A stretch of DNA of 64,000 nt from Dyadobacter jejuensis. GTDB taxonomy: Bacteria; Bacteroidota; Bacteroidia; Cytophagales; Spirosomataceae. Position numbers and translations under genes: made by a program. This document shows, in pieces, positions 6,413 to 62,000 of this stretch. The notes below the pieces were generated by a model, which had not been told where the DNA came from, searched no databases, and saw nothing but the letters and a program-made list of their open reading frames with translations. Position 1 is the first letter of the stretch. Every line of letters begins with the position of its first letter. The stretch covers positions 1-64,000 of the forward strand of contig NZ_QGDT01000016.1 in the NCBI RefSeq assembly GCF_003149085.1. Direction: 5' to 3'.

Positions 6413-6475
6413 CTTAAAAATGAAGTTTATGGTTAATATGATTAAACAGTAATTCTCTAACAATAGATAGTGGGA

Positions 6476-6928: not shown

Positions 6929-6959
6929 TTTTCTTTTGAACTGCTACCTAAATTCTAAT

Positions 6960-6994: not shown

Positions 6995-7002
6995 ATTCAG
7001 GC

Positions 7003-12315: not shown

Positions 12316-12387
12316 GTACAGGTTTATATTACTTTACCAGATTTCAGTTTAACGGTAAAGTTAGATATAATTTTCAAATACACGGAC

Positions 12388-23108: not shown

Positions 23109-24644
23109 TTAGGCATTAGAAGGTTGGTCGGCCAGTATCGCTAGCAGATCGTCCAGGTAGCTCCTGTCGTTGCTCAGCCTGGGGACTTTATTTTGCCCGC
23201 CCAATTTGTTTCTACTTCCCATCCAGCTATAAAAAGTTCCTGCCGGGGCTATATGGATGAGTGGAGGTAAGAGGGCCATGTCTTTATAGCGCTTGGCGTC
23301 GTAGTCCGAATTGACCTCTCGAAGCGATTCGTCTAGGATCCTGTTAAATTCCGCCTGGTCTGTTGGACTTTTGCTAAACTCGATGATCCACTCATGCCGC
23401 CCCCGGGAGCCGTCGCCCATGTATACCGGCCCGGCCGTGTAATTGGCTACCAGCGAATCGGTGCTGTTGGCCGCCGTCTTGATGGCATGGTCGGCGTTTT
23501 CTACGATCACTTCTTCTCCGAATGCATTGATAAAATGCTTCGTACGACCGCTAACCTTCAGACGGAAAGGGTCGATAGAGGTGAACTTGATGGTGTCGCC
23601 AATTAAATAACGCCACAGGCCGGCATTGGTAGAGATGACCAGGGCGTAGTTGACACCCACCTCCACCTCGTCGAGCAAGAGAGCCTTTGGGTGTTTCTGT
23701 CCTACTTGGTCGAGAGGGATAAATTCGTAGAAAATACCATAGTCGAGCATGAGTAGCATTTCTCCGATCTTATCTAAGTCGTCCTGAATGGCAAAGAAGC
23801 CTTCGGAGGCACTATAGGTCTCTAAATAACTGACTCCCTTCGAAGGGAAATATTTTTGGATAAACAAGTCGCGATAGGGTTCGAAAGATACCGCACCATG
23901 AACGAATACCTCAAAATCGGGCCATATTTCCAATAGGTTCGTTTTGTTATTCCTTTCCATGATGAGGTCCAGCAGTACAATGGTCCAAGTGGGTACGCCG
24001 AGGATACTCGTTACGTTTTCTTCAGAGCATATTTCTGCCATTTTCTCTAGCTTACTTTCCCAATGGTCCATCAGGGCAACGTCCAATGGCGGAGTGCGCA
24101 TGATTTCCCCCCAGGCGGGCAGGTTCTGCATGATTACCGCCGACACATCGCCTACCTGGGTATAGTCGTCGAAGGGATTGGCGTGGAGAGTTCCTCCTAT
24201 AGACAAGCCTTTTCCATCGAAAACTTTAGTGTCGGGGCGGTTCTGAATCAGCAGGGTCATCATGTCCTTGCCGCCTTCATAATGGCATTCTTCAAGCGCT
24301 TCGGGCGACACGGGAAGGAATTTACTTCGTGCGTTGGTCGTTCCCGACGACTTAGAAAACCATTCTATGGAAGAGGGCCATAGCACGTTGGCCTCTCCTT
24401 TGAGTACTCTTTCAATGTAAGGATACAGATCCTCATAGGTCGACACGGGCACCTGTTGCTGATATTCACGGATCGTTTTGATTTGGCCATAATTGTATTT
24501 GGAACCCCATTCGGTGTACCGTGCCGTTTCAAGTAACTCCGTAAACATGCGCTGCTGTGTTTCGATAGGTCTCTTCTTGAATTGTTCTATCCTCTCGTAG
24601 CGGCGATTGAGAAACCACACCGTCATGTCATTTACCAGCTTCAT
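23109..24644 (-). CDS. GH3 auxin-responsive-promoter family acyl-adenylating enzyme
   Basis: This 511-aa protein belongs to the GH3 branch of the ANL adenylating superfamily. Motifs are in order: SSGTTNARSKFLPVS (ATP/phosphate loop, ~100), TYSASEGFFAIQDD (motif 2) and GLWRYLIGDTIKFTSIDPFR with VSGRTKHFINAFGEEV (motif 3). Plant members join amino acids to jasmonate or auxin; bacterial members are common in Bacteroidota with unknown acyl substrates. The N-terminus FKKRPIETQQRMFTELLETARYTEWGSKY is typical. It lies 35 bp upstream of sbcC on the same strand, so the two may be co-transcribed. Confidence 0.88.
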   Translation of the reverse strand: MKLVNDMTVWFLNRRYERIEQFKKRPIETQQRMFTELLETARYTEWGSKYNYGQIKTIREYQQQVPVSTYEDLYPYIERVLKGEANVLWPSSIEWFSKSSGTTNARSKFLPVSPEALEECHYEGGKDMMTLLIQNRPDTKVFDGKGLSIGGTLHANPFDDYTQVGDVSAVIMQNLPAWGEIMRTPPLDVALMDHWESKLEKMAEICSEENVTSILGVPTWTIVLLDLIMERNNKTNLLEIWPDFEVFVHGAVSFEPYRDLFIQKYFPSKGVSYLETYSASEGFFAIQDDLDKIGEMLLMLDYGIFYEFIPLDQVGQKHPKALLLDEVEVGVNYALVISTNAGLWRYLIGDTIKFTSIDPFRLKVSGRTKHFINAFGEEVIVENADHAIKTAANSTDSLVANYTAGPVYMGDGSRGRHEWIIEFSKSPTDQAEFNRILDESLREVNSDYDAKRYKDMALLPPLIHIAPAGTFYSWMGSRNKLGGQNKVPRLSNDRSYLDDLLAILADQPSNA

Positions 24645-32496: not shown

Positions 32497-33561
32497 ATGG
32501 GTAAAGGGACGAAGTTTGTTCTGATTGACTTAAAGAGATTGCTAAGAAATATGGGTATTTCAAAAGACTTGGTCATTCGATTTTTTAAGAATAACTGTTC
32601 GCCGCAGGAAGAAAGGGAATTGACAAATTGGTTGGCGGAGTCTGATGAAAATATTCAGCGCGCATTGCGATGGGTCGAGTCGTTATCCGACGAAGATGAG
32701 AAGCTTTTTCTAAAACTGATGTTATCGTCTGGTGAAGTGTGGGAAAAGGCCTCAGAAAGTATGGATCAAGATTTGCCAGGGGACAAGGTTATGGCCAAGG
32801 AGAAACCATTTCGGGGGTATATTCTAGGCCATATGCGTCGATATGCAGCTATTTTTATTGCATTCGTCGTGCTATCGGCCACGCTATTGTTTTATTATAA
32901 GTTGAATTACATCCATATCGCTACAGGATATGGAGAAATTAAGAATATTGAATTACCCGACGGATCGAAAGTGGTTCTGAATGGCAATAGTAAACTCCAC
33001 TATAGCCTCCTTCATGGGGGATTTAATAGAGAAGTTTGGCTCGAGGGGGAAGGCTTTTTTGATATCAGTCATACCACGGACCATAGGAAATTTAAGGTTT
33101 TTACCGAAAGTGGAAAGACTATTGAAGTGCTCGGAACGGAGTTTACTGTACTCGAACGAAGTGATATCAGTAGGGTCGTCTTGCAGTCGGGAAGTATCAA
33201 GCTCAGTATTCCTGAAACGGAGGATTTGATGATGCAGCCGGGGGATCTGGTGGAGATATCCGGGAATCAATTGCATACCGCCCAGGAGCCCGAAAAGGTT
33301 CGAGTCGATCCAGAGACGTATTCGTCTTGGACGACCGGTAAATGGAAACTTGAGGGTACCTCTCTTCAGGAGCTCTTACAAAAAGTTGAGAGCTGCTATG
33401 GAGTTCAAGTGACTGTCGATGATAAAGCCTTATTAGAGAGGCGGGTTTCAGGTTCTATTCCGTTGACGGATATAGGGTCCGACACGTTATTGCAAGATAT
33501 TGCTGACTTATTTCAGCTGAAACTAATTCGAAATGATAGGGAGCTAATTTTAAGTAAATAA
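32497..33561 (+). CDS. FecR family anti-sigma/sigma-regulator membrane protein
   Basis: This 354-aa inner-membrane protein has an N-terminal cytoplasmic helical region (residues ~24-105, with ELTNWLAESDEN), one TM helix at ~117-134, and a periplasmic FecR domain (IATGYGEIKNIELPDGSKVVLNGNS ... EVWLEGEGFFDI ... VEVLGTEFTVL-like) followed by a C-terminal STN-like segment (SLQELLQKVESCYGVQVTVDD). Such proteins bind the signalling N-domain of a TonB receptor and hold or activate an ECF sigma factor. The receptor with an STN domain follows directly (33756). The start could be internal, at 32551 (MGISKDLVIRFF), which is more typical. No sigma gene precedes it. Confidence 0.88.
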   Translation: MGKGTKFVLIDLKRLLRNMGISKDLVIRFFKNNCSPQEERELTNWLAESDENIQRALRWVESLSDEDEKLFLKLMLSSGEVWEKASESMDQDLPGDKVMAKEKPFRGYILGHMRRYAAIFIAFVVLSATLLFYYKLNYIHIATGYGEIKNIELPDGSKVVLNGNSKLHYSLLHGGFNREVWLEGEGFFDISHTTDHRKFKVFTESGKTIEVLGTEFTVLERSDISRVVLQSGSIKLSIPETEDLMMQPGDLVEISGNQLHTAQEPEKVRVDPETYSSWTTGKWKLEGTSLQELLQKVESCYGVQVTVDDKALLERRVSGSIPLTDIGSDTLLQDIADLFQLKLIRNDRELILSK

Positions 33562-33755
33562 TAGCCATATGGCATTCCTTTTATATTTATATACGTCTGA
33601 GCCGCACGCAGATGTGAAGTAAGTTATTTCATTCTCACACACATATTGGATGGCAACCGAGGCGCCTACGGCATCTACGGTAGCGTGTGCCCTCTTAAAA
33701 AAGGGGCGAAGCTGTTGCGTATAGATTAATAAGTCAAACATTTTAAGTCATTCCT
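33562..33755. promoter_or_regulatory. Intergenic region between fecR and susC
   Basis: 194 bp with no supported gene. It probably holds the promoter or leader of the susC/susD operon. No T-run terminator is visible. Confidence 0.35.
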
Positions 33756-36700
33756 ATGAAAATTTCTCACAGAATTTGGTATTACTTTTTACTAGGTATC
33801 GCCATGTTATCCGTGGCAAGCCCGGTGTCGGCGGGCAGCCCCATAGCCTCAGACGAGTCGAAATTCCAACAGGTTTTTTTGAAAGATCTTTTACGGGAAT
33901 TAGAAGGGCGTTATAATGTATCCATTGCGTATGAAACAGGCTTGCTAGAGAATATTTGGGTAAGCAAGAATGAGATCGATATCTTAAAGAACACTAAGAA
34001 TATCGATCAACAACTGGAAAGGCTCTTGAAGCCTAAAGAGATTGGGTATCGTATGGCCAGAAAGGGGTTCTATGTATTATATAAAAATGATTCCAAGAAA
34101 GAAGCAGAGACTCCTAAGGCCACTTCAAGCCAAGTAACGGAGATTTTGAAGGCCGATTTGACGTTATCGTATCAGAGTAAGACACTTGGGATTAGTGGGA
34201 CGGTTACCGATAAGGGGGGTGCCGAAGGTATACCAGGGGTCAATATCTTATTGAAAGGCACCAATATTGGTAGTGTCACCGATGCCTCTGGAAAGTACAC
34301 GATAGAGGTTCCCAATAGTGAGGGAGTACTCGTATTTTCGTTTATAGGATACAAGACCCAGGAAGTTCCCATTGCCAATCGGAATGTGGTGGATGTGGTC
34401 TTGATAGAGGATGTTCAGGCCTTAAATGAAGTAGTCGTAACGGCCTTGGGTTTCAAAGAAGTTGCCGATCGCTTGGGATCGACCAGTAGCAAGGTGAATG
34501 GAGATGCCATTGCCAAATCGGGGGAGACTAGTGTAATCAATGGTTTGGCAGGGAAGGCTGCCGGGGTACAAATTTCGCGGGCCGCTGGCGATCCGGGAGC
34601 CGCCTCTTTTATTCAGATCCGGGGGCAAAACACCCTTACAGGAAACACCCAGCCCCTCATCGTAATCGATGGAATACCAGTTAGCAATACCACCGAAGGA
34701 GGTACCTCGGGTGGAGTAGTACCTCAGTCCCGCCTCAATGACATTAATCCCAATGATATTGCTTCTATGCAAATTTTAAAGGGGGCATCAGCAGCGGCAT
34801 TATGGGGGTCGCGGGCGGCCAATGGGGTAATTTTGATAACGACCAAAAGGGGAGCGGAAGGTAAAATGAATATTTCATTCTCTTCTACCCTGTCTTTGGA
34901 TAAAATTAATAAATACCACCCCTTTCAGAGTAATTATGGCCAGGGGTCGGCTGGTGTATACAATCCCTTAGGGGCCAATGCCTGGGGCGATAAAATCGCC
35001 GACCGTAGCGGCGGAGCCGATGAAGTCAATACCAGTGGCGCATATTTTCAAGCCGAAGACGGCTCCCTTTATTACCCTATTATCACTAAGAACTCTAAGG
35101 AAGTTTATAACGATTCGAATTTTGATAAGGTTTTCCGCACGGGTTTATATGTGGACAATGCCATTAGTATCAGTGGGGGCGATGCTAAAACCACTTATTT
35201 CCTAAGCATTGGTGATGTCCGCCAAAAAGGGATTCAACGTGGGAATAGTAGTTACAACCGTACCACTGCGAGGCTTAATGTGGAGAAAAATTTTACTGAA
35301 AAGTTAAAACTCTCTACCAGCACTGCATATACCAAAAGTTATTCTGACCGGATCCAAAGAGGGAATAACTTGGCAGGAGCCATGGTGGGCTTGGCAAGAA
35401 ACCCCGCCGACTTCGATATTTCAGACTACAAAGGGAGCTATTATAGTAGTCCGACTGCTTCGCCCATAGAAGGCCGGCAGCGTGGCTACAGGAGCTACTT
35501 AGGAGCGGTGCCTAACCCTGCCAACAATAATGCATTATGGGCCTTATATGAGCAAGAAAACTCCACTGATGTGGATCGATTTATCAACAGCGCGGAGTTG
35601 TCTTTGAAGCCGGTTTCATGGATCGACATCATAGCCCGTGGGGGCATCGACACCTATACCGATCAACAGGTGAACTACTTCCCAGTCAACGATATCGTGG
35701 GTGCGGGGCAGGGCCAGTATAAGGATCAAATTACCAAGGAGACCCAGGTTAATGCCGATCTATTGGCTCGGGTAACCAAGGATATTAGTCCCAATATCAC
35801 TTCTACCTATGTGCTTGGGTTTAATATTAACAACCGCAAATATTATAATGTGGGGGTGACCATCAATGATTTTCTAGTGGCCGATGCACCAGTCAACTTT
35901 GCTAATGCGACCACCCAAAATCGTACGCCAGTAAATTCTCGGAGTGAGGTACGAACCACCCGTACCTATGCCACAGCCAATTTTGGACTCTATGATGCCG
36001 TATTCTTAAACTTATCTGGGGCGGCGGAGTCGGCCTCTTCATTTGGTAGCCTTTCCGACAAGACCTTCTATTACCCATCGGCCGACGTAGCCTGGTTGTT
36101 TACGAAGCTCCCCCTGTTCGACAATATTAGCGGGGTAGATTTTGGTAAACTTCGGGCGTCTTACGGGGTGGTAGGGGTGCAACCCTTACCTTACCGTTCC
36201 AATACGGTATTTTCGTCGGCTTCCTTCTCGGCCAGTCCATGGGGCGACAACTTGGTAGGCTCGCAGTTTGGAGAAGGGGCCTATGCCCAAAGCAGTTCTT
36301 TGGGAGATCAATATTTGAAACCCGAAAGAAAGACAGAATACGAGATCGGCATGGATCTTCGGTTTTTTGGCTCTCGCCTAAGAACTGGACTTACCTACTA
36401 TAATAATAAGGTCAAGGATGTATTGGTACCTGTTACATTGGCTCCATCTACGGGCTTCGCTACCAAATATACCAATGCTGCCGTATTGCAGAACAAAGGT
36501 TTCGAAATGGATATGACCTACGATGTGATTAAAAAAGGGGCCCTGACTTGGTCGCTTAGGGGCAACTTTACCCGCAACCGTAGTGAAGTACTCGACTTGG
36601 CAGGAACACAATCGCTCTATTTGGAAGGCGGTATCGAAAACTTTATGGATGCCAGAGCGGTTGTTGGCCAGCCTATAGGCGTGTTTTGGAGTAGTAAATA

Positions 36701-37355
36701 TGCCTTGAATGAGGATGGTACCCGTCAATTCGATAGCAATGGATTCCCTATTGCCGATCCCGTAACGGGTGTTGTAGGGAACCCCAATCCTGACTGGATC
36801 GGTGGCTTTGGAACCAGCTTGACCTATAAGAAATTTGGATTAGATATCCTCTTTGAAACCTCTCAGGGAGGGGACTACTTTAGCGGTACCCGTGGAGTGA
36901 TGTACAATTTCGGTACCCATGGGGATACCGGGAATGAAGTGACCTTGACTACCGATTTGAAAAACTATGCCGGTGCTACCATCCCTGCCGGTTCTACCGT
37001 AAGAGGTAATATAGAGGACTTCGGTGCTGGACCAGTACTTTTGGATCAAAGCTGGTATACCACATTAGGAAGTGGATTTGGTTCTCTGAAGGAGCAGTTT
37101 ATAGAAGATGGTAGCTGGACCCGCCTGCGCCAGCTTTCCTTGTCGTACCGTTTGGATAGTGACAAGTTCAAGGAACTTACCAAGTTACAGTCTGTAGACT
37201 TCGGAGTAACGGGAAGAAACTTGCTTTTATGGACCAAGGTAGTTGGCATTGATCCCGACACCAATATGTCGGGTGGACCTACCGGCCGGAATATGGACTA
37301 TTTTAATTCCCCAGGTACCAGATCGTTCATCTTCTCCATAAAAATTAACTACTAA
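33756..37355 (+). CDS. SusC/RagA family TonB-linked outer-membrane transporter with STN domain
   Basis: This 1199-aa receptor has a signal peptide (YFLLGIAMLSVASPVSAG), an STN domain (~residues 38-115, FLKDLLRELEGRYNVSIAYE), a carboxypeptidase-regulatory-like domain (GISGTVTDKGGAEGIPGVNILL), a plug (INGLAGKAAGVQISRAAGDP...FIQIRGQNTLTG) and a SusC barrel ending TRSFIFSIKINY. It imports oligomeric nutrients with the SusD lipoprotein encoded 52 bp downstream. The STN domain implies signalling to a FecR protein, fitting the gene just upstream. Length and end match SusC. Confidence 0.95.
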   Translation: MKISHRIWYYFLLGIAMLSVASPVSAGSPIASDESKFQQVFLKDLLRELEGRYNVSIAYETGLLENIWVSKNEIDILKNTKNIDQQLERLLKPKEIGYRMARKGFYVLYKNDSKKEAETPKATSSQVTEILKADLTLSYQSKTLGISGTVTDKGGAEGIPGVNILLKGTNIGSVTDASGKYTIEVPNSEGVLVFSFIGYKTQEVPIANRNVVDVVLIEDVQALNEVVVTALGFKEVADRLGSTSSKVNGDAIAKSGETSVINGLAGKAAGVQISRAAGDPGAASFIQIRGQNTLTGNTQPLIVIDGIPVSNTTEGGTSGGVVPQSRLNDINPNDIASMQILKGASAAALWGSRAANGVILITTKRGAEGKMNISFSSTLSLDKINKYHPFQSNYGQGSAGVYNPLGANAWGDKIADRSGGADEVNTSGAYFQAEDGSLYYPIITKNSKEVYNDSNFDKVFRTGLYVDNAISISGGDAKTTYFLSIGDVRQKGIQRGNSSYNRTTARLNVEKNFTEKLKLSTSTAYTKSYSDRIQRGNNLAGAMVGLARNPADFDISDYKGSYYSSPTASPIEGRQRGYRSYLGAVPNPANNNALWALYEQENSTDVDRFINSAELSLKPVSWIDIIARGGIDTYTDQQVNYFPVNDIVGAGQGQYKDQITKETQVNADLLARVTKDISPNITSTYVLGFNINNRKYYNVGVTINDFLVADAPVNFANATTQNRTPVNSRSEVRTTRTYATANFGLYDAVFLNLSGAAESASSFGSLSDKTFYYPSADVAWLFTKLPLFDNISGVDFGKLRASYGVVGVQPLPYRSNTVFSSASFSASPWGDNLVGSQFGEGAYAQSSSLGDQYLKPERKTEYEIGMDLRFFGSRLRTGLTYYNNKVKDVLVPVTLAPSTGFATKYTNAAVLQNKGFEMDMTYDVIKKGALTWSLRGNFTRNRSEVLDLAGTQSLYLEGGIENFMDARAVVGQPIGVFWSSKYALNEDGTRQFDSNGFPIADPVTGVVGNPNPDWIGGFGTSLTYKKFGLDILFETSQGGDYFSGTRGVMYNFGTHGDTGNEVTLTTDLKNYAGATIPAGSTVRGNIEDFGAGPVLLDQSWYTTLGSGFGSLKEQFIEDGSWTRLRQLSLSYRLDSDKFKELTKLQSVDFGVTGRNLLLWTKVVGIDPDTNMSGGPTGRNMDYFNSPGTRSFIFSIKINY

Positions 37356-37407
37356 TTCAATCTCACAACCTTGGAGAAGTTTTAAAGCTCCAAATGATAA
37401 ATCTTCA

Positions 37408-38865
37408 ATGAATATGAGACGAAACCATCTATCGAATAAGCTAATTCTGCTAATGCTGTTGGGTTTGTTTTCTTGTGAATCTCTAGTAGATAACATGAAT
37501 ACCGACCTGAATAACCCTACTGATGCATCGGCCACCTTGCTACTTACCGCAGCAGAGCTTGGAAACGTGTCGGTACAAGAGGGGCATTTGGCCAGGGTAG
37601 CCAGCATGTGGTCGGGATATTTTACCGGGTCCGATCGCCAGTATAAGGATATCTATAATTATAATGTCACCGGAGCCTCCTTCAATGATGTTTGGCAGTT
37701 TGTTTATCAATCCGTTGTAGAACAGACTCAGCTTATTATTGAGAAGTCGGAGGCGAGTAACAACCGTCTGATGCAAGGTATTGCCAAGGTGATTACCGCT
37801 AATGCCTTGGGGACTGCCACTGCTTGCTGGGGGGATATACCGTTTTCGGAGGCAGCAGACATAGAAAAGTTTCCTAACCCAGCGTTCGAATCTCAAACTG
37901 TCGTGTATGGTAAACTACAGGCCCTGCTCGACGAGGCCATTGCCGACCTAGAATCGGGGGCTGGAACCAGCCCGGGAGTGGCCGACATACATTTTGGAGG
38001 AGATTCCGATAAATGGAAAATGGCAGCCTATAGCCTCAAAGCTAGATTTTTCATGGAAACCAAAGAGTATGCACTCGCTGCTGCTGCTGCCGAAAAGGGT
38101 ATCAATGCGCCTGGAGCCTCTTGGGTAATGTATCATGGAAATACCCTGAATGTTAACGAGAACTTGATGTATGCCTATATAGCCAGAAACAGGGTGGGCG
38201 ATGTGGATGCCTCTTTGGCTTTGGTACCTAACTTGCTTAACCCTGGTAGTGCCACCTACAAAGGAAATGCGAAGACCGACGAAACCGCCCGTTACAAGTA
38301 TCAATATATGACCGTGAATGCTTCTGGTTCTGCCATACCCGTAACTCCCAACACCAGCAGTACTACTACGGCCAGAGGCCTATTTGGGCAAACGACCTCC
38401 TATCCGATGGTGAGCTATTCCGAAACTCTGTTGACGGCCGCTGAGGCTGCGGCTAGGACCAAAGGATTTGACGAAGGCCTTGCCAAACTGAACCTGTACC
38501 GGGCCTATTTGAATGGCGGTGGTGATCTAGATGCTACCTATAAAAGTGCCTATACCTTTAAATATGAGCCCTATGTTGAGGCTGATTTTGAACCTGGGGG
38601 CATGCTAAATCCCGATAATATGTCGGCTCAAAGCGCTTTGTTAAAGGAGATATTGATGGAACGCTACGTTAGCTTTAACGGGCAGATTATCGGTTTTAAC
38701 GATCTACGCCGTACCCGCAACGAAGCGGAAGGGGTGCAACTCCAGCCAGCAACAGGCTCCTCTCTACCAGAAAGGATGATATACAGCGAGGCGGAAATAA
38801 ACTCCAATACCAGTGCGCCTAACCCGGTGCCAGGATTGTTCGTTCCCACTGCGGTTAATTTATAG
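37408..38865 (+). CDS. SusD/RagB family lipoprotein
   Basis: This 485-aa surface lipoprotein has a lipobox (ILLMLLGLFSC) and the SusD-like all-helical TPR fold (PF12771-like). The Asn-Thr-Asp-rich start MNTDLNNPTDAS and later NALGTATACWGDIPFSEAAD match the SusD-like_2 group, where the Trp-Gly-Asp-Ile-Pro motif is conserved. It caps the SusC barrel and binds substrate. It follows SusC by 52 bp and is co-transcribed. The C-terminal LMERYVSFNGQIIGFNDLRRTRN is typical. Confidence 0.93.
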   Translation: MNMRRNHLSNKLILLMLLGLFSCESLVDNMNTDLNNPTDASATLLLTAAELGNVSVQEGHLARVASMWSGYFTGSDRQYKDIYNYNVTGASFNDVWQFVYQSVVEQTQLIIEKSEASNNRLMQGIAKVITANALGTATACWGDIPFSEAADIEKFPNPAFESQTVVYGKLQALLDEAIADLESGAGTSPGVADIHFGGDSDKWKMAAYSLKARFFMETKEYALAAAAAEKGINAPGASWVMYHGNTLNVNENLMYAYIARNRVGDVDASLALVPNLLNPGSATYKGNAKTDETARYKYQYMTVNASGSAIPVTPNTSSTTTARGLFGQTTSYPMVSYSETLLTAAEAAARTKGFDEGLAKLNLYRAYLNGGGDLDATYKSAYTFKYEPYVEADFEPGGMLNPDNMSAQSALLKEILMERYVSFNGQIIGFNDLRRTRNEAEGVQLQPATGSSLPERMIYSEAEINSNTSAPNPVPGLFVPTAVNL

Positions 38866-38890
38866 ATATTTACCCTAACGGGTGGATCCT

Positions 38891-38912
38891 TGCCAAGCCC
38901 TTGAGCTTGGCA
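38891..38912. other. Small RNA hairpin between susD and the first amidohydrolase
   Basis: TGCCAAGC (38891-38898) pairs with GCTTGGCA (38905-38912) around a 6-base loop. It has no T-run, so I read it as an mRNA-stability or processing hairpin inside the operon, not a terminator. Confidence 0.4.
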
Positions 38913-38950
38913 GGGATAAGATTTACCAATACTAAACAAATTAGGTCATT

Positions 38951-41900
38951 ATGCTTATGCCAAAGTACAAATCCCCTTTTAGCACGGTTTTTATTCGACA
39001 AGTTAAGCTGTTTCATGGCTTATGCCTTATTCTATTTTCTTTGGGAAATAACCCGGCAAGTGCTTCGGTAGGCGACACCACCCAGGTACGCCTGGTGGAA
39101 GGGACCAATATGGCCATAGCCGTTTCGCCCGACGGACAACAGATCGCCATGGATGTGCAGGGGACTATCTGGGTGGTGCCAAGAGCCGGTGGAAAAGCCA
39201 AGCCCATTACGGATGGTATGGGCGACGACCGCCAGCCTAGCTGGTCGGTCGATGGAAAGCGGGTGGCCTTTCAGTCTTTCAGAGACGGCTATTACCATAT
39301 ATGGGCCGTCAATAGCGATGGGACCGGTCTTGAGCAGCTCACTAGAGGGGTCTTTGACGAACGGGAACCTCAGTGGTCGCCCGACGGTAAGTCTTTGCTT
39401 TTTTCATCGGATCGTGCAGGGAATTATGACATTTGGAAAATGAACCTAGAGACTTTTGAGCTCACACAACTCACTACCGACCTAGCTAACGACTATTGTC
39501 CTGCTTACTCTTCGAATGGAGATGCGATCGCTTTCGTTTCGGAACGTACTCAGGCACCTGGCATATATCAGCTCACCAAAGATGGAAAAGAAACGCTTTT
39601 GGCGGCTCAGGCGGGTAAGCTCTATGCTCCCTCTTGGAATCCCGATGGTACCCATGTTTATTTTAACGCTTTTACGGGCAGTAGTAGCAGCCTCCTGGAT
39701 ATTGATGTGAAGCAACAAAAGGCGGTAGCTGTAACTCCTCCTGAAGAGGATGTATTTCCGTTCAGAACGAGTTGGTTGTCTGGAAAGGAGTTTGTTTATT
39801 CGGCCGACGGAAAAATAAAAAAGAAAATAGTAGGGAAAAAGGATGCCGAAATTATTCCCTTTGAGGCTTTAGTGACGGTAACGACCCCCAATTACACCCG
39901 TAAGCCTTATGATTTCGACAAGGGGGCTGGAAAGCCTGTGAAGGGAATAAAGGGACTGAATGTGTCGCCGGATGGTACCAAATATTTGTTCTCGGCGCTC
40001 GGCGATATATGGATGCTAAAAAAGGGGGAAACGGTACCAACTCCATTGACCAACGATCCTTATTTGGATGCTGACCCAACCTGGTCGCCCGATGGAAAGA
40101 CCATCGCCTTCCTAACCGACCGCACGGGACAGATGACCCTATGGCTGCATGATGTAGCTTCGGGAGAGCAAAAAGAGTTGGTAAAGCTGGATTACGATCT
40201 GAACTACCCGAGCTGGTCTCCTGATGGTACCCGAATTGCATTCTATATGGGGGACTCTAGGAATTCGTGGGGGATGGGGACCTTGCAGGCTGTAGATGTC
40301 AAAACAAAGGAGATCACCAAGCTTCACGATGCCCTATTTGTACCCAGCCAGCCGAGCTGGTCGCCCGATGGGAAGACCATCGCCCTATCCGGACTACAGG
40401 TTTATTCCACCCGCTTTAGAGAGGGTATTAACAAGATTATGCTCGTGTCGCTGGAAGGCGAGCCCGACCGATACGTATCCCCAGTAGAAGAGCGCTCCTT
40501 AGGAATGCGTGCCAAGAATGGTCCCGCCTGGTCACCCGATGGCAAATCGATGGCTTACGTTCAAGACGGTTCATTATGGGTGATTGCCGTTGATAGAAAA
40601 GGAGGGTTAGTAGGCCCCCCTCGCAGGCTTACCAACGAATTGACAGAAGTGCCTAGTTGGACTGCCGATTCTAAAACTTTGGTATACATGGCCACCGATA
40701 GTATCAAACAGATCCGTCTTTCGGATGGTGCCATAGAGGCTATACCACTTACACTGAATTGGGATTATAAAGCAGGTCAAGGGGTTACCGTGGTTCATGC
40801 AGGAAAGGTATTTGACGGGAAAAATGATCGGTACCTTATGAATATGGACCTTATCGTCAAGGACAACCGGATTCAAGACATTCTGCCTCATAAGGCGGGA
40901 AGAGCGGGAAACTTGGTAGACGCCTCGAATAAGACGGTTATCCCGGGATTATTTGAAATGCATACGCATCAGCATGCCATGACTGGGGAAAAGTTGGGTA
41001 GGTTATGGCTTTCCTTTGGGATTACATCCCTCAGAGAAACGGGAGCGGATCCCTATGATGCCTTAGAAAGGAAAGAGTCGTGGGATAGTGGTTCGCTGGT
41101 AGGTCCTCGCGAATTCTTTACCGGTGGACTTACCGATGGGAGTAGAATCTACTATGGACTAGCCAATAGTATTCATTCCACCGCTCAGCTGGATATGGAG
41201 TTGGAACGTTCCTCGCGCTTGGGTTACGATATGATCAAGACTTATGTACGGATGCCCGACATCTTGCAGCAAAGAATTACCGCCTTTGCTCATGCTCATG
41301 GAATACCCGTTTCGTCTCATGAAATATTCCCCGCCATGCGTTATGGGGTCGACCAAGTAGAACATATCGGCGGTACTAGCCGGCGGGGTTATTCTCCCAA
41401 GATCACTGCGATGAACCATACCTATCAGGATGTATTGGAGTTGCTTAAAAAATCGCAGATGAACATCACTCCAACCGCTTCTTTACAAGGAGGTTTCTAT
41501 GCCATGGCGGCCAAGAACCCTAGTTTTTATGATAACGTCCAATTCAATACCTTTTATACTCCTGAGTATATTAGTATCATGAAAAATGGGGCAAGTACCA
41601 TTGAAAAACGGTTGCCGGGGTATCTGAAAAACTTTGGTCAAATTCAGAAGACCGTAAAAAAACTCATTGACGGTGGGGCTAGGGTAACTGCTGGTACCGA
41701 CAGCCCATTTATCCCCTATGCGATGAGCCTGCATTCGGAGCTGCAATGCTGGGTAGATGGGGGCATTACTCCCTTCCAAGCCTTACGTTCGGCCACCATC
41801 TGGTCGGCCGAAGCGGTGGGGGTGAGTAAAGATCTGGGTTCTTTGGAAAAGGGAAAATTGGCCGATCTGGTGATTGTCGATGGGGACCCTTTGAAGAAAA

Positions 41901-41980
41901 TAGAGGATGCCTGGAATATTCAAATGGTGATGAAGAATGGTATTTTATATACGCTAGATCAGCTGCTGAAACGTCCCTAG
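38951..41980 (+). CDS. Secreted TolB-propeller/amidohydrolase fusion, first copy
   Basis: This 1009-aa protein has a signal peptide (FHGLCLILFSLGNNPASA), then ~570 residues of TolB/WD40-like beta-propeller with repeated SPDG blades (QPSWSVDGKRVAFQS, EPQWSPDGKSLLFSSDR, DPTWSPDGKTIAFLTDR), then an amidohydrolase TIM barrel. The metal set is complete: HTH at 671-673, Lys 763 in YDMIKTYV, His 790, His 805 and Asp 917 in TAGTDSPF. It hydrolyses an amide, peptide or cyclic bond; the propeller could gate or bind the substrate. It lies 86 bp after susD, so it likely processes what SusCD imports. The substrate is not deducible. Confidence 0.9.
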   Translation: MLMPKYKSPFSTVFIRQVKLFHGLCLILFSLGNNPASASVGDTTQVRLVEGTNMAIAVSPDGQQIAMDVQGTIWVVPRAGGKAKPITDGMGDDRQPSWSVDGKRVAFQSFRDGYYHIWAVNSDGTGLEQLTRGVFDEREPQWSPDGKSLLFSSDRAGNYDIWKMNLETFELTQLTTDLANDYCPAYSSNGDAIAFVSERTQAPGIYQLTKDGKETLLAAQAGKLYAPSWNPDGTHVYFNAFTGSSSSLLDIDVKQQKAVAVTPPEEDVFPFRTSWLSGKEFVYSADGKIKKKIVGKKDAEIIPFEALVTVTTPNYTRKPYDFDKGAGKPVKGIKGLNVSPDGTKYLFSALGDIWMLKKGETVPTPLTNDPYLDADPTWSPDGKTIAFLTDRTGQMTLWLHDVASGEQKELVKLDYDLNYPSWSPDGTRIAFYMGDSRNSWGMGTLQAVDVKTKEITKLHDALFVPSQPSWSPDGKTIALSGLQVYSTRFREGINKIMLVSLEGEPDRYVSPVEERSLGMRAKNGPAWSPDGKSMAYVQDGSLWVIAVDRKGGLVGPPRRLTNELTEVPSWTADSKTLVYMATDSIKQIRLSDGAIEAIPLTLNWDYKAGQGVTVVHAGKVFDGKNDRYLMNMDLIVKDNRIQDILPHKAGRAGNLVDASNKTVIPGLFEMHTHQHAMTGEKLGRLWLSFGITSLRETGADPYDALERKESWDSGSLVGPREFFTGGLTDGSRIYYGLANSIHSTAQLDMELERSSRLGYDMIKTYVRMPDILQQRITAFAHAHGIPVSSHEIFPAMRYGVDQVEHIGGTSRRGYSPKITAMNHTYQDVLELLKKSQMNITPTASLQGGFYAMAAKNPSFYDNVQFNTFYTPEYISIMKNGASTIEKRLPGYLKNFGQIQKTVKKLIDGGARVTAGTDSPFIPYAMSLHSELQCWVDGGITPFQALRSATIWSAEAVGVSKDLGSLEKGKLADLVIVDGDPLKKIEDAWNIQMVMKNGILYTLDQLLKRP

Positions 41981-42005
41981 CCCACTCTTTCTGGTCAATT
42001 TTAGG

Positions 42006-42044
42006 AAAAACAATATGCCAATGGTTCATTGGTGTATTGTTTTT
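42006..42044 (+). terminator. Terminator between the two amidohydrolase genes
   Basis: AAAAACAATATGCCAAT (42006-42022) pairs with ATTGGTGTATTGTTTTT (42028-42044), with one wobble position and a 5-base loop, ending in a T-run. It should attenuate transcription from the susCD operon before the second paralogue. Confidence 0.75.
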
Positions 42045-42107
42045 AAATTTTATTTTAGGCCCGTCCTCCTCACACATTCTATTTAAGATCATAAAATTAC
42101 TAAACCC

Positions 42108-45074
42108 ATGTTCAAACGGTACCTCGCTTCTCTACTCTGTGTCTTCATTTATTTGCCAAGTTTACAGGCTCAAACTTACCTCACCGATTCTGTCCGGGTC
42201 CGGTTGTCGGAAGGTACCAACATGGCAGCAGCCCTTTCCCCCGACAAGTCGACCATAGCGATAGATCTGCAAGGGACGATTTATTTGGTCCCTGTTGGGG
42301 GAGGCACAGGGATGGCCATAACCGATGCATTAGGCGACTGTCGACTTCCAACTTGGTCGCCTGATGGGGAGCGAATCGCCTTTCAGTCCTATCGCGATGG
42401 GAACTACCATATCTGGGAGGTGAATCGGAACGGGACTCAGTTACGACAACTTACCTTTGGGGTATTTCATGACCGAGAGCCAGACTATTCGCCCGATGGG
42501 AAAAAAATTATTTTCTCCTCCGACCGCAGTGGGAATTATGACTTATGGACAGTAGATGTAACAAATAATAACTTGAACAGGCTCACGACGGGGTTAGAAA
42601 ATGAATACTATCCTTCCTACAGTGCCGATGGTTCCAGTATCGTATATGTTTCTGAGAATAAAAGTCAGCCGGGGCTCTACCGTCTCGATGGGGAAAGTGC
42701 GCCAAAGCTTATTTATGAGACCAAAGAGAAGGTTCATAGTCCGGTATGGAATGCTACGGGCAGCCAAATCTTGTTTACCAAAGCTACCCATCAATGGAGT
42801 ACCCTTGAGGCGCTGGATGTTTCGACAAGGCAAACCACGCTGCTTACCGATTCCCTAGTGGATATATTTCCTTTTAAGGTAAGTTGGCTTACCGACACCG
42901 ACTATCTTTATACAGGCCAAGGGAAGCTCTGGAAGGGGAGCCTAGCCAATTCCGAAAAGGATAGCATTCCTTTTGAGGTTAACTTAAGCCTAGGGCGCCA
43001 CCGTTACACGCCTAAACAGCGCTCGTTCGACTTAAGTGTCTCCTTTAAGGTGCAGGGAATAAGAAGCCCGGTGGTATCGCCCGATGGGCAAAAGGTAGTC
43101 TTTACGGCCCTAGGCGACCTTTGGGTGCTCACCATAGGGCAAGCGCTCCCAGTTCGTATCACCCAGGGCCCTCACGTTAAGCTCGATCCGGTATGGTCGC
43201 CAGATGGTAAGCTGATAACCTATACCTCCGACAAGAATGGAGGAATGGATATTTGGAGTGTCGATTTGAAAAGTAAGAAAGAAGCGGTTCTGATACAGGC
43301 GGAGTCGTTATTGAAATTCCCCTCTTGGTCTCCTGATGGGCGGTATTTGGCGTACTATCAGGCTCAGGCGAATTCATACAGTAAATATAGCTTGCAGCTA
43401 TGGGATAAAACCACGGGGCAATCGAGGGCTATTGAGGCCGATTTTTTTGAAGGTTCTCAACCGACCTGGTTTCCAGATAGCAAGTCTATAGCCATTTCGG
43501 CGGTAGACCCTTTTTCGACCCGTTTTAGGGAAGGATTGAATAAAGTTCATATTTATGGGATTGATGGTACCTTCAAAAATAAGTTTTCACCCGTAGCTGA
43601 TAAAAGCCTAGGAACCAGAGGTAAAAATGGTCCCTTCGTTTCTCCAGATGGGAGTAAGATGGCCTACATTCAAGATAACCTTTTATGGATGGTACCTTTA
43701 AGTAGCCAGCAAGAAGTGGCTGGTCCGCCAGTTTGTTTGTCGTCGGAGCTGGCCGAGTCTCCTAGTTGGTCTGGAGATAGTCAACAAATCCTCTTTTTGA
43801 GCTCCGATCTCTTAAAGCGTGTTGATGTAGTTAAGGGGACCTTAGAGGCGATCCCGTTCGATCTGGAATGGAAAGCTAAAGGTAGTGACCAGCTCATGGT
43901 AGTCCATGCGGGCCGTGTGTTCGATGGCAAAAATGAAAAGTATTTACTCAATCAAGATTTGGTAATCAAAGGCAATCGGATCGAAGGAATATATCCACAT
44001 CAGGAGGGTAGAGCGGGCCAGTATATCGATGCCTCCATGCTGACGGTCATGCCCGGGATGTTTGAGATGCATACACACCAGAGCGCTTATCTGGGCGAAA
44101 AAGGTGGACGATTGTGGTTGGCGTATGGGGTTACTTCCATTAGGGAGCCCGGTACCGACCCCTACGATGCCCTCGAACGAAAAGAAGCTTGGGGAAGTGG
44201 AGCCCGGCTGGGGCCCAGAACGTTCTTTACCGGAGGGCATATGGAAGGGAATCGGGTTTATTACAACCGAAATACCAGTAACGTAGGTGGGTCTCAACTC
44301 GACCTAGAACTAAACAGAGCCGCTACGCTGGGTTACGATATGATAAAGACCTATGTAGGATTATCGGATATGCTGCAGAAGCGTGTCACCGACTTTGCCC
44401 ATCAAAACGGAATGTCGGTTTCCTCCCATGAACTTTATCCTGCTGCAGGTTATGGAGTCGATGCCGTAGAGCATATGGGAGCGACTAGTCGACGAGGCTT
44501 CTCTCCCAAACTTACGGCTTTGAACCATAGTTATCAGGATTTTATTACCATCATCGCCAAGTCCGGTATGTACATCACCCCAACCATCTCCTTACACGGT
44601 GGATTCTTTGCCCAGGTTTTATCGGATACTTCCTTTTTTAATCATGACCAGTTTAAGCTATTCTATCCCGAGCGTTTAGGCAAACAGTTGGCGGCTACTT
44701 CCAGGGCCATGCAGAGCCGGTTGGTTACCTACCCCCATGTAGAGTCGACGCTGAAAACTTTAATTAATTCGGGGGCACGGGTCACTCCTGGTACCGATTC
44801 GCCGATATTGCCCTCTGGCCTCAGCTACCATGCTGAGTTAAGAAGCTGGGTGAAGGCGGGAGTCAGTAATTTCCAAACGCTCAGGGCGGCTACCCTGTGG
44901 TCGGCCGAAGAAATAGGAGTTAGTAAAGACTTGGGAACTATAGAAGCCGGTAAGCTGGCAGATATGGTGCTTATAGACGGAGATCCACTAGTACATATCG
45001 AAGATTTGATAAACGTAAAAGGGGTGTTCAAAAATGGAACCTACCTCTCCGAAGAGCGACTTCGACATCCATAG
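42108..45074 (+). CDS. Secreted TolB-propeller/amidohydrolase fusion, second copy
   Basis: This 988-aa paralogue of the preceding protein has the same order: signal peptide (YLASLLCVFIYLPSLQA), TolB-like propeller with SPDG blades (LPTWSPDGERIAFQSYRDGN, DPVWSPDGKLITYTSDKNGG), amidohydrolase barrel. The metal ligands are kept: HTH at 655-657, Lys 747, the His in SSHELYP and VEHMGA, and Asp in TPGTDSP. Long stretches are near-identical in pattern (GMFEMHTHQSAY, DPYDALERKEAWGSG), so this is a tandem duplication that has diverged, especially in the propeller. It has its own leader after a terminator. Confidence 0.9.
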   Translation: MFKRYLASLLCVFIYLPSLQAQTYLTDSVRVRLSEGTNMAAALSPDKSTIAIDLQGTIYLVPVGGGTGMAITDALGDCRLPTWSPDGERIAFQSYRDGNYHIWEVNRNGTQLRQLTFGVFHDREPDYSPDGKKIIFSSDRSGNYDLWTVDVTNNNLNRLTTGLENEYYPSYSADGSSIVYVSENKSQPGLYRLDGESAPKLIYETKEKVHSPVWNATGSQILFTKATHQWSTLEALDVSTRQTTLLTDSLVDIFPFKVSWLTDTDYLYTGQGKLWKGSLANSEKDSIPFEVNLSLGRHRYTPKQRSFDLSVSFKVQGIRSPVVSPDGQKVVFTALGDLWVLTIGQALPVRITQGPHVKLDPVWSPDGKLITYTSDKNGGMDIWSVDLKSKKEAVLIQAESLLKFPSWSPDGRYLAYYQAQANSYSKYSLQLWDKTTGQSRAIEADFFEGSQPTWFPDSKSIAISAVDPFSTRFREGLNKVHIYGIDGTFKNKFSPVADKSLGTRGKNGPFVSPDGSKMAYIQDNLLWMVPLSSQQEVAGPPVCLSSELAESPSWSGDSQQILFLSSDLLKRVDVVKGTLEAIPFDLEWKAKGSDQLMVVHAGRVFDGKNEKYLLNQDLVIKGNRIEGIYPHQEGRAGQYIDASMLTVMPGMFEMHTHQSAYLGEKGGRLWLAYGVTSIREPGTDPYDALERKEAWGSGARLGPRTFFTGGHMEGNRVYYNRNTSNVGGSQLDLELNRAATLGYDMIKTYVGLSDMLQKRVTDFAHQNGMSVSSHELYPAAGYGVDAVEHMGATSRRGFSPKLTALNHSYQDFITIIAKSGMYITPTISLHGGFFAQVLSDTSFFNHDQFKLFYPERLGKQLAATSRAMQSRLVTYPHVESTLKTLINSGARVTPGTDSPILPSGLSYHAELRSWVKAGVSNFQTLRAATLWSAEEIGVSKDLGTIEAGKLADMVLIDGDPLVHIEDLINVKGVFKNGTYLSEERLRHP

Positions 45075-45297
45075 TGACGAGGTGGTAATTATTTATGTTT
45101 TAAGTGGTTACTACAATAGTGCTGGATGATATTTGTGATAAAATATAAATTAAGTATAATAATAAGTATATTTTAGAAAAAGACTTTTGATTAATTTAAA
45201 ATTTGTATTTTATGCTTGGTGGCGATTTATTATATTTATAAGCAAATTATAGACAGAATAATATTTTGAATGCATTTTCGCTACTGATATATCTTTT
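45075..45297. promoter_or_regulatory. AT-rich region upstream of the sigma factor gene
   Basis: These 223 bp of strongly AT-rich DNA precede the ECF sigma gene and should contain its own promoter. No strong hairpin follows the amidohydrolase stop at 45074, so read-through from the island is possible. Confidence 0.35.
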
Positions 45298-45858
45298 ATG
45301 AAAAAAGCCATATTTTCGGATCGGGAGATTTTATCTCAAATAGCCAAGGATGATAAATCTGCATTTAAGATTTTATTTGATCAATACTATCCCATTTTAA
45401 TACGGGTCCTGATGCAATACTCCAGGGATGAGGAGCAAATAAAGGATTGGACTCAAGAGATATTTATGAATTTGTGGATGGCCAGGCATACCTCGCACTT
45501 TCAAGATATCGAAAATGTAAAGGCCTATATGATTGTGGTGGCCCGTAACTATGCCATTCGGGTGTTGGGTAAGAAAAAACAATTGGTCACTCAAGCCTAT
45601 AGTGAATCGGCGGCTGAGGAAATCGCTGATCCTAATATTCAGGATCGGGTAGAGGAGTTGGAGCTTTTGAAGGCCTATCAAGACGTAGTGGCTAAGCTTC
45701 CTCCTCAGACTCAAAAGGCCTATTTACTCAGTAGAGAAAAAGGACTTACCTATACTAAAGTAGCGGAAGAAATGGGGTTGTCCGTTCGCACGGTAGAAAA
45801 TCAAATTTCACGGGCTTTGGCTATCTTACGCCAAGAGTTGACGTTGCTAATCGATTAA
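45298..45858 (+). CDS. ECF-type RNA polymerase sigma factor
   Basis: This 186-aa sigma-70 family protein has region 2 (FKILFDQYYPILIRVLMQYSRDEEQIKDWTQEIFMNLWMAR...) and region 4 (KLPPQTQKAYLLSREKGLTYTKVAEEMGLSVRTVENQISRALAILRQEL) with the helix-turn-helix. Size and layout fit the Bacteroidota FecI-like group that works with FecR proteins. It is encoded at the far end of the SusCD/amidohydrolase island instead of beside fecR (32497). I infer it is the sigma that FecR controls, but an unrelated target set is possible. Confidence 0.92.
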   Translation: MKKAIFSDREILSQIAKDDKSAFKILFDQYYPILIRVLMQYSRDEEQIKDWTQEIFMNLWMARHTSHFQDIENVKAYMIVVARNYAIRVLGKKKQLVTQAYSESAAEEIADPNIQDRVEELELLKAYQDVVAKLPPQTQKAYLLSREKGLTYTKVAEEMGLSVRTVENQISRALAILRQELTLLID

Positions 45859-59084: not shown

Positions 59085-62000
59085 TTATTTGTATCGAATT
59101 TTGGCTACTTCTAGGCAATCGTGTGCAATCTGGTCCATATCATTGAAAGACATCTCCACATTGTGTTTGTCTCGTACTTCGTCAATCAAATAATCTCCGA
59201 TATCTATGAGTAATTTGCCGGTAATATTAGTTTTTGATTGCCAATCAATTACAGGCTTTCCATCGTCTAATACAGACCCATGAATGAGATTGTCAATATG
59301 CAATGCCGTTTGTGTTGAAACCTCTTTTCGATTTTTTTTGTCTAAAATTTTATCCTTTAATGCTTCAGTAGTTAATCCATAAAATGCCTTTGCTGCATCT
59401 CTGCCATTCAGCTGTTCTGGCAGGTCTTTGTCTGTATGCGCCAGTACATGGTTCATGATATCTTGAACTCTGCTCAAGTATTGCGCTTCACTAATACGTT
59501 TGGCTTCATAATCGGCAATTGTTTCCTTCAACATTTGCGAAAATTTCTTATAAAAAGAGGGATCTTCATCCATTTTTTTGCTGATGTGTTTCGCCGTTCG
59601 ACTGGCAATTTTATCTGCCTTGGCCGCTTTACCCGTTGTGTTTTCTACTTCCTGCTGAAATTTATCCGTATCGAAAATATTTACCAATTCGGTAATGGTT
59701 TCAATTTTATCAGTAGTAATGTGGGTGTCGATCAATTTTTGAATCTGCCCCTCATATTGCTTATAGTCGATTTCATCGCTGTATCGCTCCACTACTGCCA
59801 AGCGCAGTTTCAGGAACATCGTTAGGTCTTCCTTATAGCGATTGATTGTTTTTAATTCTGTGCCATTGTGGAACTGGATCGACGATAAAGCCAATTTCAA
59901 ACTCTTGGCAAATGCGGCAAGTTTGTCATAAAATAAAACACGTATAGCTTCATCTTTCAGTAGTTGTTGATAAGCCTCTGCATCCCTTTTATTGGCTATT
60001 ACCTTGAAAATATCCCATAAATCCGAATATTTTTGAGGTAGCTTTTTTATTTCTTCAGAAATATTAATTATTGTACCTGCCAAGTCTTCTTCATCAAAAT
60101 CTTCAAATGAGGAATACAATTGTAAGGCATCGTCCAGATTTTCAATTACGCCGTAGTAGTCTATTATATAACCAAATTCTTTGTCTGGATATATACGGTT
60201 TACCCTTGCAATGGCTTGCAAGAGTTTATGGCCTAGAAGATTTCTTGTGAGATACAGCACAGTATTCTTAGGTTCGTCAAATCCTGTGAGTAGCTTATCT
60301 ACAACAATGATGATTTCAGGGTCTTTCTGGTTTTTGAATCGGCTAATGATATTCTTCTCATAACTCTTAGAGTTTCCATGTGCGTCCATCATTTTCAACC
60401 AAAACGACTTCACTTTTTCGGGAGATTTTTCATAGGCACTTTCTTCTCCTTCTCTATCATCGGAGGACGAAATCAATACCTCACTGCTTACAATGCCAAT
60501 TTCATCTAGATATTCTTTGTATTTGATAGCATTTACTTTTTTATCGCAAACCAACTGCCCCTTAAATGGGGTTTTACCTTGCCAATTATTACGAAAATGA
60601 TAGCTAATGTCCCAAGCGATCATGCGCATTTTCTGTTCGGCTGAATTCAAATGGTCATATCTGGCAAATTTCTTCTTGATGTCTGACTTTTGATAATCAG
60701 ACAAGGGTTCGGATACCATTCCGAAAAATGTATCCAAGGGGCTTGCATTTACATCTTGTTTGGCCATTCGGCCCTCATATAATAACGGTACAACGGCCTG
60801 GTCACTTACGGCTTGTTTGACTGTGTATGCGTCAATCACACCACCAAATTTTGCCGCGGTGCTTTTGTCTTTTTTGAAAAGGGGGGTTCCTGTCAGAGCA
60901 ATAAAACAAGCATTTGGTAATGTTTTTTGCATGTCAATATTAAATGTTCCATGCTGGGTTCGATGTCCCTCGTCTACCAATACAAAAATGTCGTGGCTCT
61001 CCAGAGGCTTATCGATTTTTTTTACGGCAGCTACAAATTTATTGATAATGGTAGTTACCACTGCATCACTTTTATTCTCTAGCAGTTCAACCAACCGCTG
61101 TCCGGTGGTTGCATTCTCAACAAATTGGCCACATTTTCTGAATGTACTGGTAATTTGACTATCTAAATCAGTACGGTCGGTAACCAGTACGATCTTTGGA
61201 TTACGAATACTGGGTTCCATTGCGATGGCCTGAGCTAACATGACCATGGTCAAAGACTTTCCGCTGCCTTGTGTATGCCAAATTACCCCGCCTTTCCGTT
61301 GGCCATTTTCTATGTTTTTTATTCTGTGCATCGATTTTTTGATGGCAAAAAACTGTTGATAACGGGCTACTTTCTTTTCGCCATTGTCGAACAAAACAAA
61401 ATTGAATGCAAGGTCCATTAATCTGTCAGGACGGCACATACCAAACAAATATTTATCCTGTTCGGTGGGTAGGATTTTCTCTTGTTCCAATGCATCAAAG
61501 TATTGACGAACATATTGGTAACGGTCTGTGAATAATTGTTGCTTATTTTCAGTTGAAAGCGGTTGGTTTTTGACCGCCTCTAATTCGTTTTTGTAGTTAC
61601 TTTTTTCTTCATCGCTGCTAAACTTTTCCTGCCACGTTGCCCAAAACTTTTCGGGAGTCGCATTGGTGGCATAGGTCGCCTCTTGTGTAGCAATGCTTAA
61701 TAGTAGTTGAGAATACACATACAAATTGCGGATACCATCTTCTTGTTGGTTTCGCAGATGCTGGCTGACAGCCTGTTTCAATGGCTCTTTCATAGCCGGT
61801 CGTTTGCACTCGATGATACAAAGGGGTATACCATTTACAAATAATACCAAATCGGGTCGGTAATGCTCTTTGCTGGTGCTGCGCATCACACTGTATTCTT
61901 TGGTTACATGAAATACGTTATTCCTTATGTTTTTCCAATCGATGTATTGCAGGGTAAAACTTTTTTTATCGCCATCCACACTTTGTTCCAGTGCCTCACC

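Follow-up and report, generated by a model that had tools for sequence, protein, structure and literature searches.

The window, by which we mean the whole 64,000-nucleotide stretch of Dyadobacter jejuensis DNA (genome size 5.76 Mb), contains a six-gene locus on the forward strand with the order FecR-SusC-SusD-A-B-ECF sigma (Table 1; L numbers below denote the loci compared). A SusC gene recognized by TIGR04056 adjoins a SusD-like lipoprotein gene, so that the two form a SusCD pair. The SusC protein carries an N-terminal extension that looks STN-like by eye and to which Pfam STN assigned no score. Of the components of a FecI-FecR-type signalling system, FecR and sigma domains were detected with Pfam, with the sigma gene at the far end of the locus; the sigma factor scores slightly below the cut-off of TIGR02985 (124.9 vs 126.4 bits), and its gene occupies the same position in L005, L006, L007, L035, L036, L038 and L039. 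SusCD loci are customarily read as sugar-uptake loci. Pfam identified no carbohydrate-active enzyme among the six genes of 32497-45858, and the locus does not qualify as a polysaccharide utilisation locus. Elsewhere in the window there is a GH32 gene (at 56509) and, on the reverse strand, genes for a 1770-aa protein that contains 13 Ig_7 stretches and has a type IX sorting tail of borderline score (7003-12315), a glycoside hydrolase family 3 domain joined to a beta-lactamase-type serine hydrolase (12388-15456), a protein of the GH3 family, which we take to be the plant auxin-conjugating family (23109-24644, ~8 kb from the FecR gene), and the R subunit of a type I restriction enzyme (59085-62312).

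Table 1. Genes and other features of the locus, with window coordinates and the evidence for each assignment
Feature	Coordinates	Strand	Evidence or remark
FecR-type anti-sigma factor	32497..33561	+	Pfam FecR and FecR_C above cut-off
SusC/RagA-type TonB-linked outer-membrane importer	33756..37355	+	TIGR04056, 623 bits vs cut-off 368
SusD-like surface lipoprotein	37408..38865	+	Pfam SusD-like_2 4.9e-31; lipobox GLFSC by eye
Protein A, 1009 aa, double-propeller amidohydrolase	38951..41980	+	ORF list, Pfam, AlphaFold2 model
18-pair hairpin with T-rich tail in A/B gap	42006..42044	+	Terminator or attenuator candidate
Protein B, 988 aa, same architecture as A, clade B	42108..45074	+	ORF list, Pfam, tree
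ECF sigma factor, last gene of locus	45298..45858	+	Pfam Sigma70_r2 and r4_2 above cut-off

Proteins A and B are 48% identical over 986 columns; the genome has no full-length match to A besides these two, its two further matches being short. In both, PD40 and Amidohydro_1 exceed the Pfam gathering scores, and both begin with a hydrophobic stretch in which no lipobox is evident by eye. The first-pass annotation, made from the sequence, had described two exported proteins of ~1000 aa with amidohydrolase sites after SusD, which agrees with the open reading frames, the six metal ligands given below and the hydrophobic N-termini. AlphaFold2 models built from family alignments (mean pLDDT 91.5 for A and 92.0 for B) predict for A two propellers (~aa 42-312 and ~aa 333-605, the strands of the second continuing to ~aa 605) followed by an amidohydrolase barrel (~aa 610-1003). 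Residues 62-307 of the A model superpose on TolB (Z 26.7 over 244 residues). Fold searches carried out with the model of A reported as the nearest structures of the barrel (610-1003), effectively as ties, the Lys/Arg carboxypeptidase Cc2672 (3mtw, Z 35.6, 353 residues, rmsd 3.4), an Xaa-Pro dipeptidase (2qs8, Z 35.4), an amidohydrolase from Thermonema (9kov, Z 35.2) and a prolidase-like protein (2p9b, Z 35.0). Ranks 1-20 (Z 31.5-35.6) comprise dipeptidases, prolidases, carboxypeptidases and amide or carbamate-type hydrolases, several of them titled merely 'amidohydrolase', and ochratoxin-cleaving amidohydrolases (Z ~33) rank after the dipeptidases. The scores against the NCBIfam models NF051886 (Xaa-Pro dipeptidase equivalog; A: 125.6, B: 100.4, cut-off: 500 bits), TIGR02800 (TolB; A: 223, B: 202.4, cut-off: 343.15 bits) and NF033523 (Atxe2-type lasso peptide isopeptidase; A: 133.6, B: 93.9, cut-off: 400 bits) are all below the thresholds. 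We rejected the assignment of A and B as a lasso peptide isopeptidase or as TolB, since these NCBIfam matches cover the propellers only and catalysis is assigned to a barrel of the amidohydrolase type. The barrel is presumably M38-like and COG1228-like, labels that we take from general knowledge or from papers and not from a family score.

The predicted metal ligands of A (H671, H673, K763, H790, H805 and D917) are invariant in 86/86 family members and align column by column with those of all six Xaa-Pro-dipeptidase-like proteins compared, which come from the same bacterial family and of which four exceed the NF051886 cut-off. Judged from this alignment, the set is that of the binuclear subtype of the amidohydrolase superfamily (HxH, Lys, His, His, Asp), and both the metals and the carboxylation of the Lys residue are predicted. 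In the six dipeptidases, strands 1, 3, 4 and 5 are followed by longer loops than in the fused family, hence the chemistry of A and B could differ from that of the stand-alone enzymes. R732, Y735 and R811 are invariant in 86/86 rows, R811 being a gap position in the dipeptidases. The TG[GS]H motif in the strand-3 loop of the dipeptidases has no aligned counterpart in the fused family; the letters [TS]G[GS]H do occur in 10/86 rows, all from clade B (defined below) or its sister L046, and fall outside the dipeptidase column in this alignment. Position 727 is His in 11/86 rows, precisely the ten clade-B rows and L046, and Leu in A. Two reports on other amidohydrolases describe a histidine that assists in carbonyl polarisation (PMC13081902; PMC11511702). 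It is a guess that His727 of clade B is such a carbonyl-polarising residue, absent from A, alignments at this level of identity being unsure. A further variant, with Tyr after the strand-5 His and Asn replacing Glu930, is found in 20/86 rows.

The loci of the family were collected in one scan of genome contigs with the patterns FEMHTHQ and YDMIKTY, the choice of which biases the census. The best 80 of 108 relatives were kept, representing 78 distinct loci; with the window added and L080 omitted, the 78 loci counted belong to Bacteroidota (54), Actinomycetota (15), Pseudomonadota (7), Acidobacteriota (1) and Gemmatimonadota (1). The 86-row alignment omits L028, L048, L053 and L080 (genes split, cut short or incomplete); in L028 (927-3995) and L053 (9950-12977) the enzyme gene is split over two open frames each. 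Matches to A at E <= 1e-150 are present in 17/101 genomes of the bacterial family, its own included, and in 0/6 other sampled genomes of the genus, and the distribution of the locus is patchy. In a tree of the 86 rows, calculated with a quick method, a split separates A from B (29 and 18 rows on their respective sides), and each side includes a protein from Pontibacter silvestris (L011 and L046), which indicates that the split is either old or was spread by transfer. The tree also contains a third clade from Dyadobacter, named C. The gene order is SusC-SusD-A-B-ECF in the window, L005 and L038, SusC-SusD-C-A-M20-B-ECF in L006 and L007 (the former with two extra small ORFs), and SusC-SusD-C-M20-B-ECF in L035, L036 and L039. 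As read from these comparisons, the locus is built as a modular array in which individual members have been retained or lost, and A and B are old paralogues.

The hairpin between A and B, of which 4 pairs are G-C, has a z value of -5.4 for the 61-base stretch and of -2.5 over the whole A/B gap, and terminator-like sites in the region number 14, compared with 14.7 expected. It is not conserved, since the A/B gap of L005 contains no such hairpin and that of L038 contains one without an evident U-run; on these grounds the idea of a conserved regulatory terminator was dropped. Of the terminator that had been proposed at this position, the hairpin and its T-rich tail stand, at a site frequency no higher than expected.

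Analysis of the genomic neighborhood, based on the best 80 of 108 relatives, revealed SusC and SusD within 6 kb of the enzyme in 26/54 Bacteroidota loci (18/34 of those with full flanks) and in 1/24 loci outside Bacteroidota, thus SusCD is dispensable for the enzyme. M20 or M20D genes are found within 6 kb in 13/54 Bacteroidota loci from the same sample (8 from Dyadobacter, 3 from Pontibacter and 2 without a genus name); only 4 of the 34 Bacteroidota loci with full flanks have an M20 gene, and there is none in the window locus. The window genome has 10 M20 matches in its 5.76 Mb, 9 of them above the cut-off. The M20 proteins encoded between or beside the enzymes are dipeptidase-like (best NCBIfam matches PRK08201 or PRK09104, below cut-off), the three M20D proteins checked (two in L011 and one in L046) exceed the TIGR01891 cut-off, and the remaining M20/M20D assignments were made with phmmer. 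A different arrangement was found in L042 from Daejeonella (2114-13947), where SusC and a gene in the SusD position are followed by a class V aminotransferase (with a weak PvdN-like match), a Gfo/Idh-like protein, a double-propeller amidohydrolase and an RraA-like protein. The same order recurs in L049 (2250-13871); the genes of L042 other than that in the SusD position and the aminotransferase of L049 were checked with Pfam, the rest being assigned by clustering or size. These two loci appear to represent a different use of the same double-propeller enzyme.

The comparison of the window SusC with solved structures identified BT_2264 (5fq6) as the best match (309 bits, next 192). One report describes the BT2263-BT2264 and RagAB complexes as solved with oligopeptide ligands (PMC7782687). 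What sets the window SusC apart from these systems is the presence of FecR and ECF sigma genes next to it. The nearest SusC paralogue in the window genome is 58% identical (the next full-length one only 33%) and belongs to a locus of the order ECF-FecR-SusC-SusD-GGT (G000:C20; L091:3370-11840), which is a candidate for a second amide/peptide locus of the genome; the best solved relative of its gamma-glutamyltranspeptidase (GGT) is titled cephalosporin acylase. At E <= 1e-200 matches to the window SusC were found in 34/101 genomes of the bacterial family, at 40 places, 36 of which were fetched (omitted were the window's own, G017:C2, G098:C9 and G034:C1:3908295). According to phmmer, 21 of the 36 subfamily loci have an amide hydrolase within 6 kb of SusC: 10 a double-propeller amidohydrolase and 11 an M20, M20D, GGT, penicillin amidase or TldD/E protein. 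The same hydrolases were found at 0/20 other SusC loci of the window genome, nor did they occur anywhere in those stretches. The 15 subfamily loci without any of these hydrolases include L110 and L122, which end at a contig edge. Pfam confirmed the GGT in L091, penicillin amidase in L094 (twice), L096 and L101, and M20 together with TldD/E in L095, while the hydrolases of L103, L104 and L115-L118 are assigned by phmmer (in L115 the matching frame is short). Three of the 36 loci were themselves the source of queries, and the SusC query comes from an amidohydrolase locus; the proportion is 18/33 without the query loci and 8/23 if the amidohydrolase loci are removed as well, against 0/20 (p = 0.004) in a control that represents one genome and in which one locus, L136, ends at a contig edge. 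After SusD, Pfam detected no hydrolases of these kinds in L097 (PKD, FAD-oxidoreductase) or L099 (BNR-type repeats). Among the proteins encoded downstream in the control loci (49/51 scanned with Pfam), a Met-zincin (DUF4953) and a class V aminotransferase were identified, one each, among 25 of 71 families listed; the control loci are thus not free of all peptidase-like genes.

We propose, with a probability of roughly 0.6, that A and B diverged from each other long ago and are periplasmic, metal-dependent and probably binuclear enzymes that hydrolyse amides in the manner of dipeptidases or N-acyl-amino-acid hydrolases, acting behind a TonB-driven SusCD importer under FecR/ECF-sigma control. 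Since the relatives of the importer often adjoin other amide-bond cutters, the substrates are expected to be small peptides or acylated amino acids rather than sugars. The non-glycan amide or peptide substrate suggested by the first-pass annotation is thereby strengthened: the fold neighbors are of the dipeptidase type, and M20, GGT, penicillin amidase and TldD/E genes lie beside relatives. SusD and SusC would bind and take up a small compound with an amide linkage (oligopeptides and N-acylated amino acids are the most likely candidates), and other exported peptidases, such as the M20 proteins of related loci, may trim it first. A or B would then cut the amide bond with water activated by two metals, with carboxylated Lys763 as the bridge. 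Both propellers may serve as a common scaffold or as a size filter ahead of the barrel, A and B could divide the labor through differing loops of the catalytic pocket, and expression of the locus may be induced through the FecR/ECF pair.

It is possible, if rather unlikely, that A and B are N-acyl amidases and not peptidases, and that they remove different acyl groups from an imported N-acylated amino acid, acyl lactone or similar compound. Acylase-type families do occur near relatives (penicillin amidase, M20D and the GGT with its cephalosporin acylase-titled relative), and the ochratoxin-cleaving enzymes are among the near folds of A; moreover, one report describes the cleavage of taurine-conjugated bile salts by another amidohydrolase-superfamily enzyme (PMC13081902). 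However, the dipeptidase-like M20 proteins and TldD/E suggest peptides, and the peptide and N-acyl classes overlap to the extent that the sequence does not separate them.

As to where A and B differ, their barrels are 56% identical and their propellers 43%. The greater similarity of the catalytic halves, which the first-pass annotation had emphasized, is real, but the difference is moderate and widespread in the family: barrel identity exceeds propeller identity in 88% of the 3655 pairs formed by the 86 members. In 628 pairs of similar barrel identity the propellers are on average 48.5% identical (sd 3.7), and those of A and B are at the 7.5th percentile, i.e. somewhat more diverged than usual. 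Orthologs reveal the same gap, the values for barrel and propellers being 88% and 76% between A and the A protein of L005, and 78% and 60% between B and its L005 counterpart. Equal divergence of both domains, named in the first-pass annotation as an outcome contrary to its reading, is not seen in the window pair, but it is seen in the A/B pair of the sister locus L038 from Persicitalea (59.1% and 58.9%). Of the positions conserved in clade A (11 rows) as well as in clade B (10 rows), those that separate the two number 20/191 in the barrel and 5/173 in the propellers (p = 0.006); within the barrel they number 12/52 in beta-alpha loops and 8/139 elsewhere (p = 0.0012), with the loops taken from the secondary structure of the model, both p values being optimistic because the rows are related.

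In trees calculated for individual domains, A and B remain separate for the barrel as well as for propeller 2. L046 from Pontibacter silvestris (9956-12988) has a B-type barrel and a propeller 1 that groups with A-type Pontibacter proteins. For propeller 1 the placement of L046 inside clade B is rejected (p 0.0009), and it joins the A-type proteins of L011 and L025 with a support of only 67; for the barrel, a grouping of L046 with L011/L025 is rejected (p 0.0004); for propeller 2 the Pontibacter grouping is rejected (p 0.0014), in contrast to the B grouping (p 0.30). Also for propeller 1, neither an A clade with L038 (p 0.06) nor an L038 pair (p 0.116) is rejected. The low support of 67, the propeller 2 results and those for L038 do not favor an exchange. 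All these p values are liberal, because the groups were chosen after the trees had been seen. The trees suggest that propeller 1 was exchanged between paralogs in this one Pontibacter, which argues for specificity residing in the barrel pocket. Because barrels are better conserved than propellers family-wide and the clade-separating residues are enriched in active-site loops, the difference between A and B probably lies in the catalytic pocket.

That the propellers determine the substrate range of A and B, as the first-pass annotation read their faster divergence, appears improbable. The lower identity of the propellers and their position at the 7.5th percentile speak for it, but the trend is equally present family-wide and in orthologs, clade-separating residues are rare in the propellers, and propeller 1 and the barrel of L046 have different affinities; we therefore set aside the propellers as the better candidate for the seat of specificity. 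We consider it highly improbable that A and B open cyclic amides (hydantoins, dihydropyrimidines, diketopiperazines or lactams) like other branches of the amidohydrolase superfamily. The superfamily is indeed shared, imidazolonepropionase structures appear lower in the fold list of A (2bb0, Z 27.9), and a profile search also turned up hydantoinases and dihydroorotases; against this, the top 20 folds are of the kinds named above and Pfam identified no ring-catabolism enzyme among the six genes of the locus. No hydantoinase is among the 50 fold matches listed for A, which excludes nothing, and the cyclic imide mentioned in the first-pass annotation as a substrate gains no specific support, the nearest folds being dipeptidases and amide hydrolases. 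That A and B arose by a recent tandem duplication and are redundant, with no labor divided between them, is barely credible: they are adjacent on the same strand and share one architecture, but the tree with a Pontibacter silvestris protein on either side of the split, the recurrence of A-B, A-M20-B and C-M20-B orders in other loci, and the 20 clade-separating barrel positions speak against it.

Taken individually, the parts of the system are of known kinds, and the variant lies in the fusion to a dipeptidase-like barrel and in the context of the SusC subfamily. The COG1228-type dipeptidases and carboxypeptidases (Cc2672 3mtw, 2qs8, and the Sgx9260b/c prolidases 3mkv and 3n2c) have a similar barrel fold (Z 33.4-35.6) and share the six-ligand set, as aligned on NF051886-like relatives, whereas A and B are fused to two propellers, have shortened strand-1/3/4/5 loops and no aligned TG[GS]H, possess the invariant R732, Y735 and R811, and score far below the equivalog cut-off. 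The ochratoxin-cleaving ADH3 and its relatives (8ihs, 8yag) have a like fold and, according to their titles, hydrolyse amides, but unlike A and B they are ~400-residue chains without propellers. TolB resembles propeller 1 of A, which here is joined to an enzyme domain. The tricorn protease also has propellers joined to a hydrolase; its catalytic domain is a serine protease, unrelated to the amidohydrolase barrel. Its structure (1k32) was reported by Foldseek at rank 19 for A, presumably through the propellers, with a poor superposition (TM 0.24, rmsd 14.7). In a full-text literature search we found no title on a propeller-amidohydrolase fusion, which is weak evidence of absence, given that subscription papers are mostly outside the scope of such a search.

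We tentatively entertain a broader idea, to which we give less than even odds: this SusC/SusD subfamily could be a dedicated gate for small amide-linked compounds, served in different species by exchangeable exported amide hydrolases from at least five families (double-propeller amidohydrolase, M20/M20D, penicillin amidase, GGT and TldD/E); the propellers of the double-propeller enzymes, exchangeable between paralogs, would replace the shortened barrel loops as a lid and size filter of the active site, and the barrel pocket alone would set the specificity. If the subfamily imports peptides or acyl amino acids, non-glycan substrates could become predictable from the sequence of SusC. With A and B, the location of specificity in propeller-fused hydrolases can readily be tested.

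Outside Bacteroidota, the Actinomycetota loci L060, L062, L063, L065-L070, L072, L073, L075, L079, L081 and L082 belong to a separate 20-row clade of the tree together with the Pseudomonadota loci L061, L064, L074, L076 and L078, with no SusCD labels nearby. Two metagenome bins, L032 (labelled Thalassobius) and L051 (Rhodospirillaceae), are placed among the Bacteroidota copies, the former with SusCD, and their contigs are possibly misbinned.
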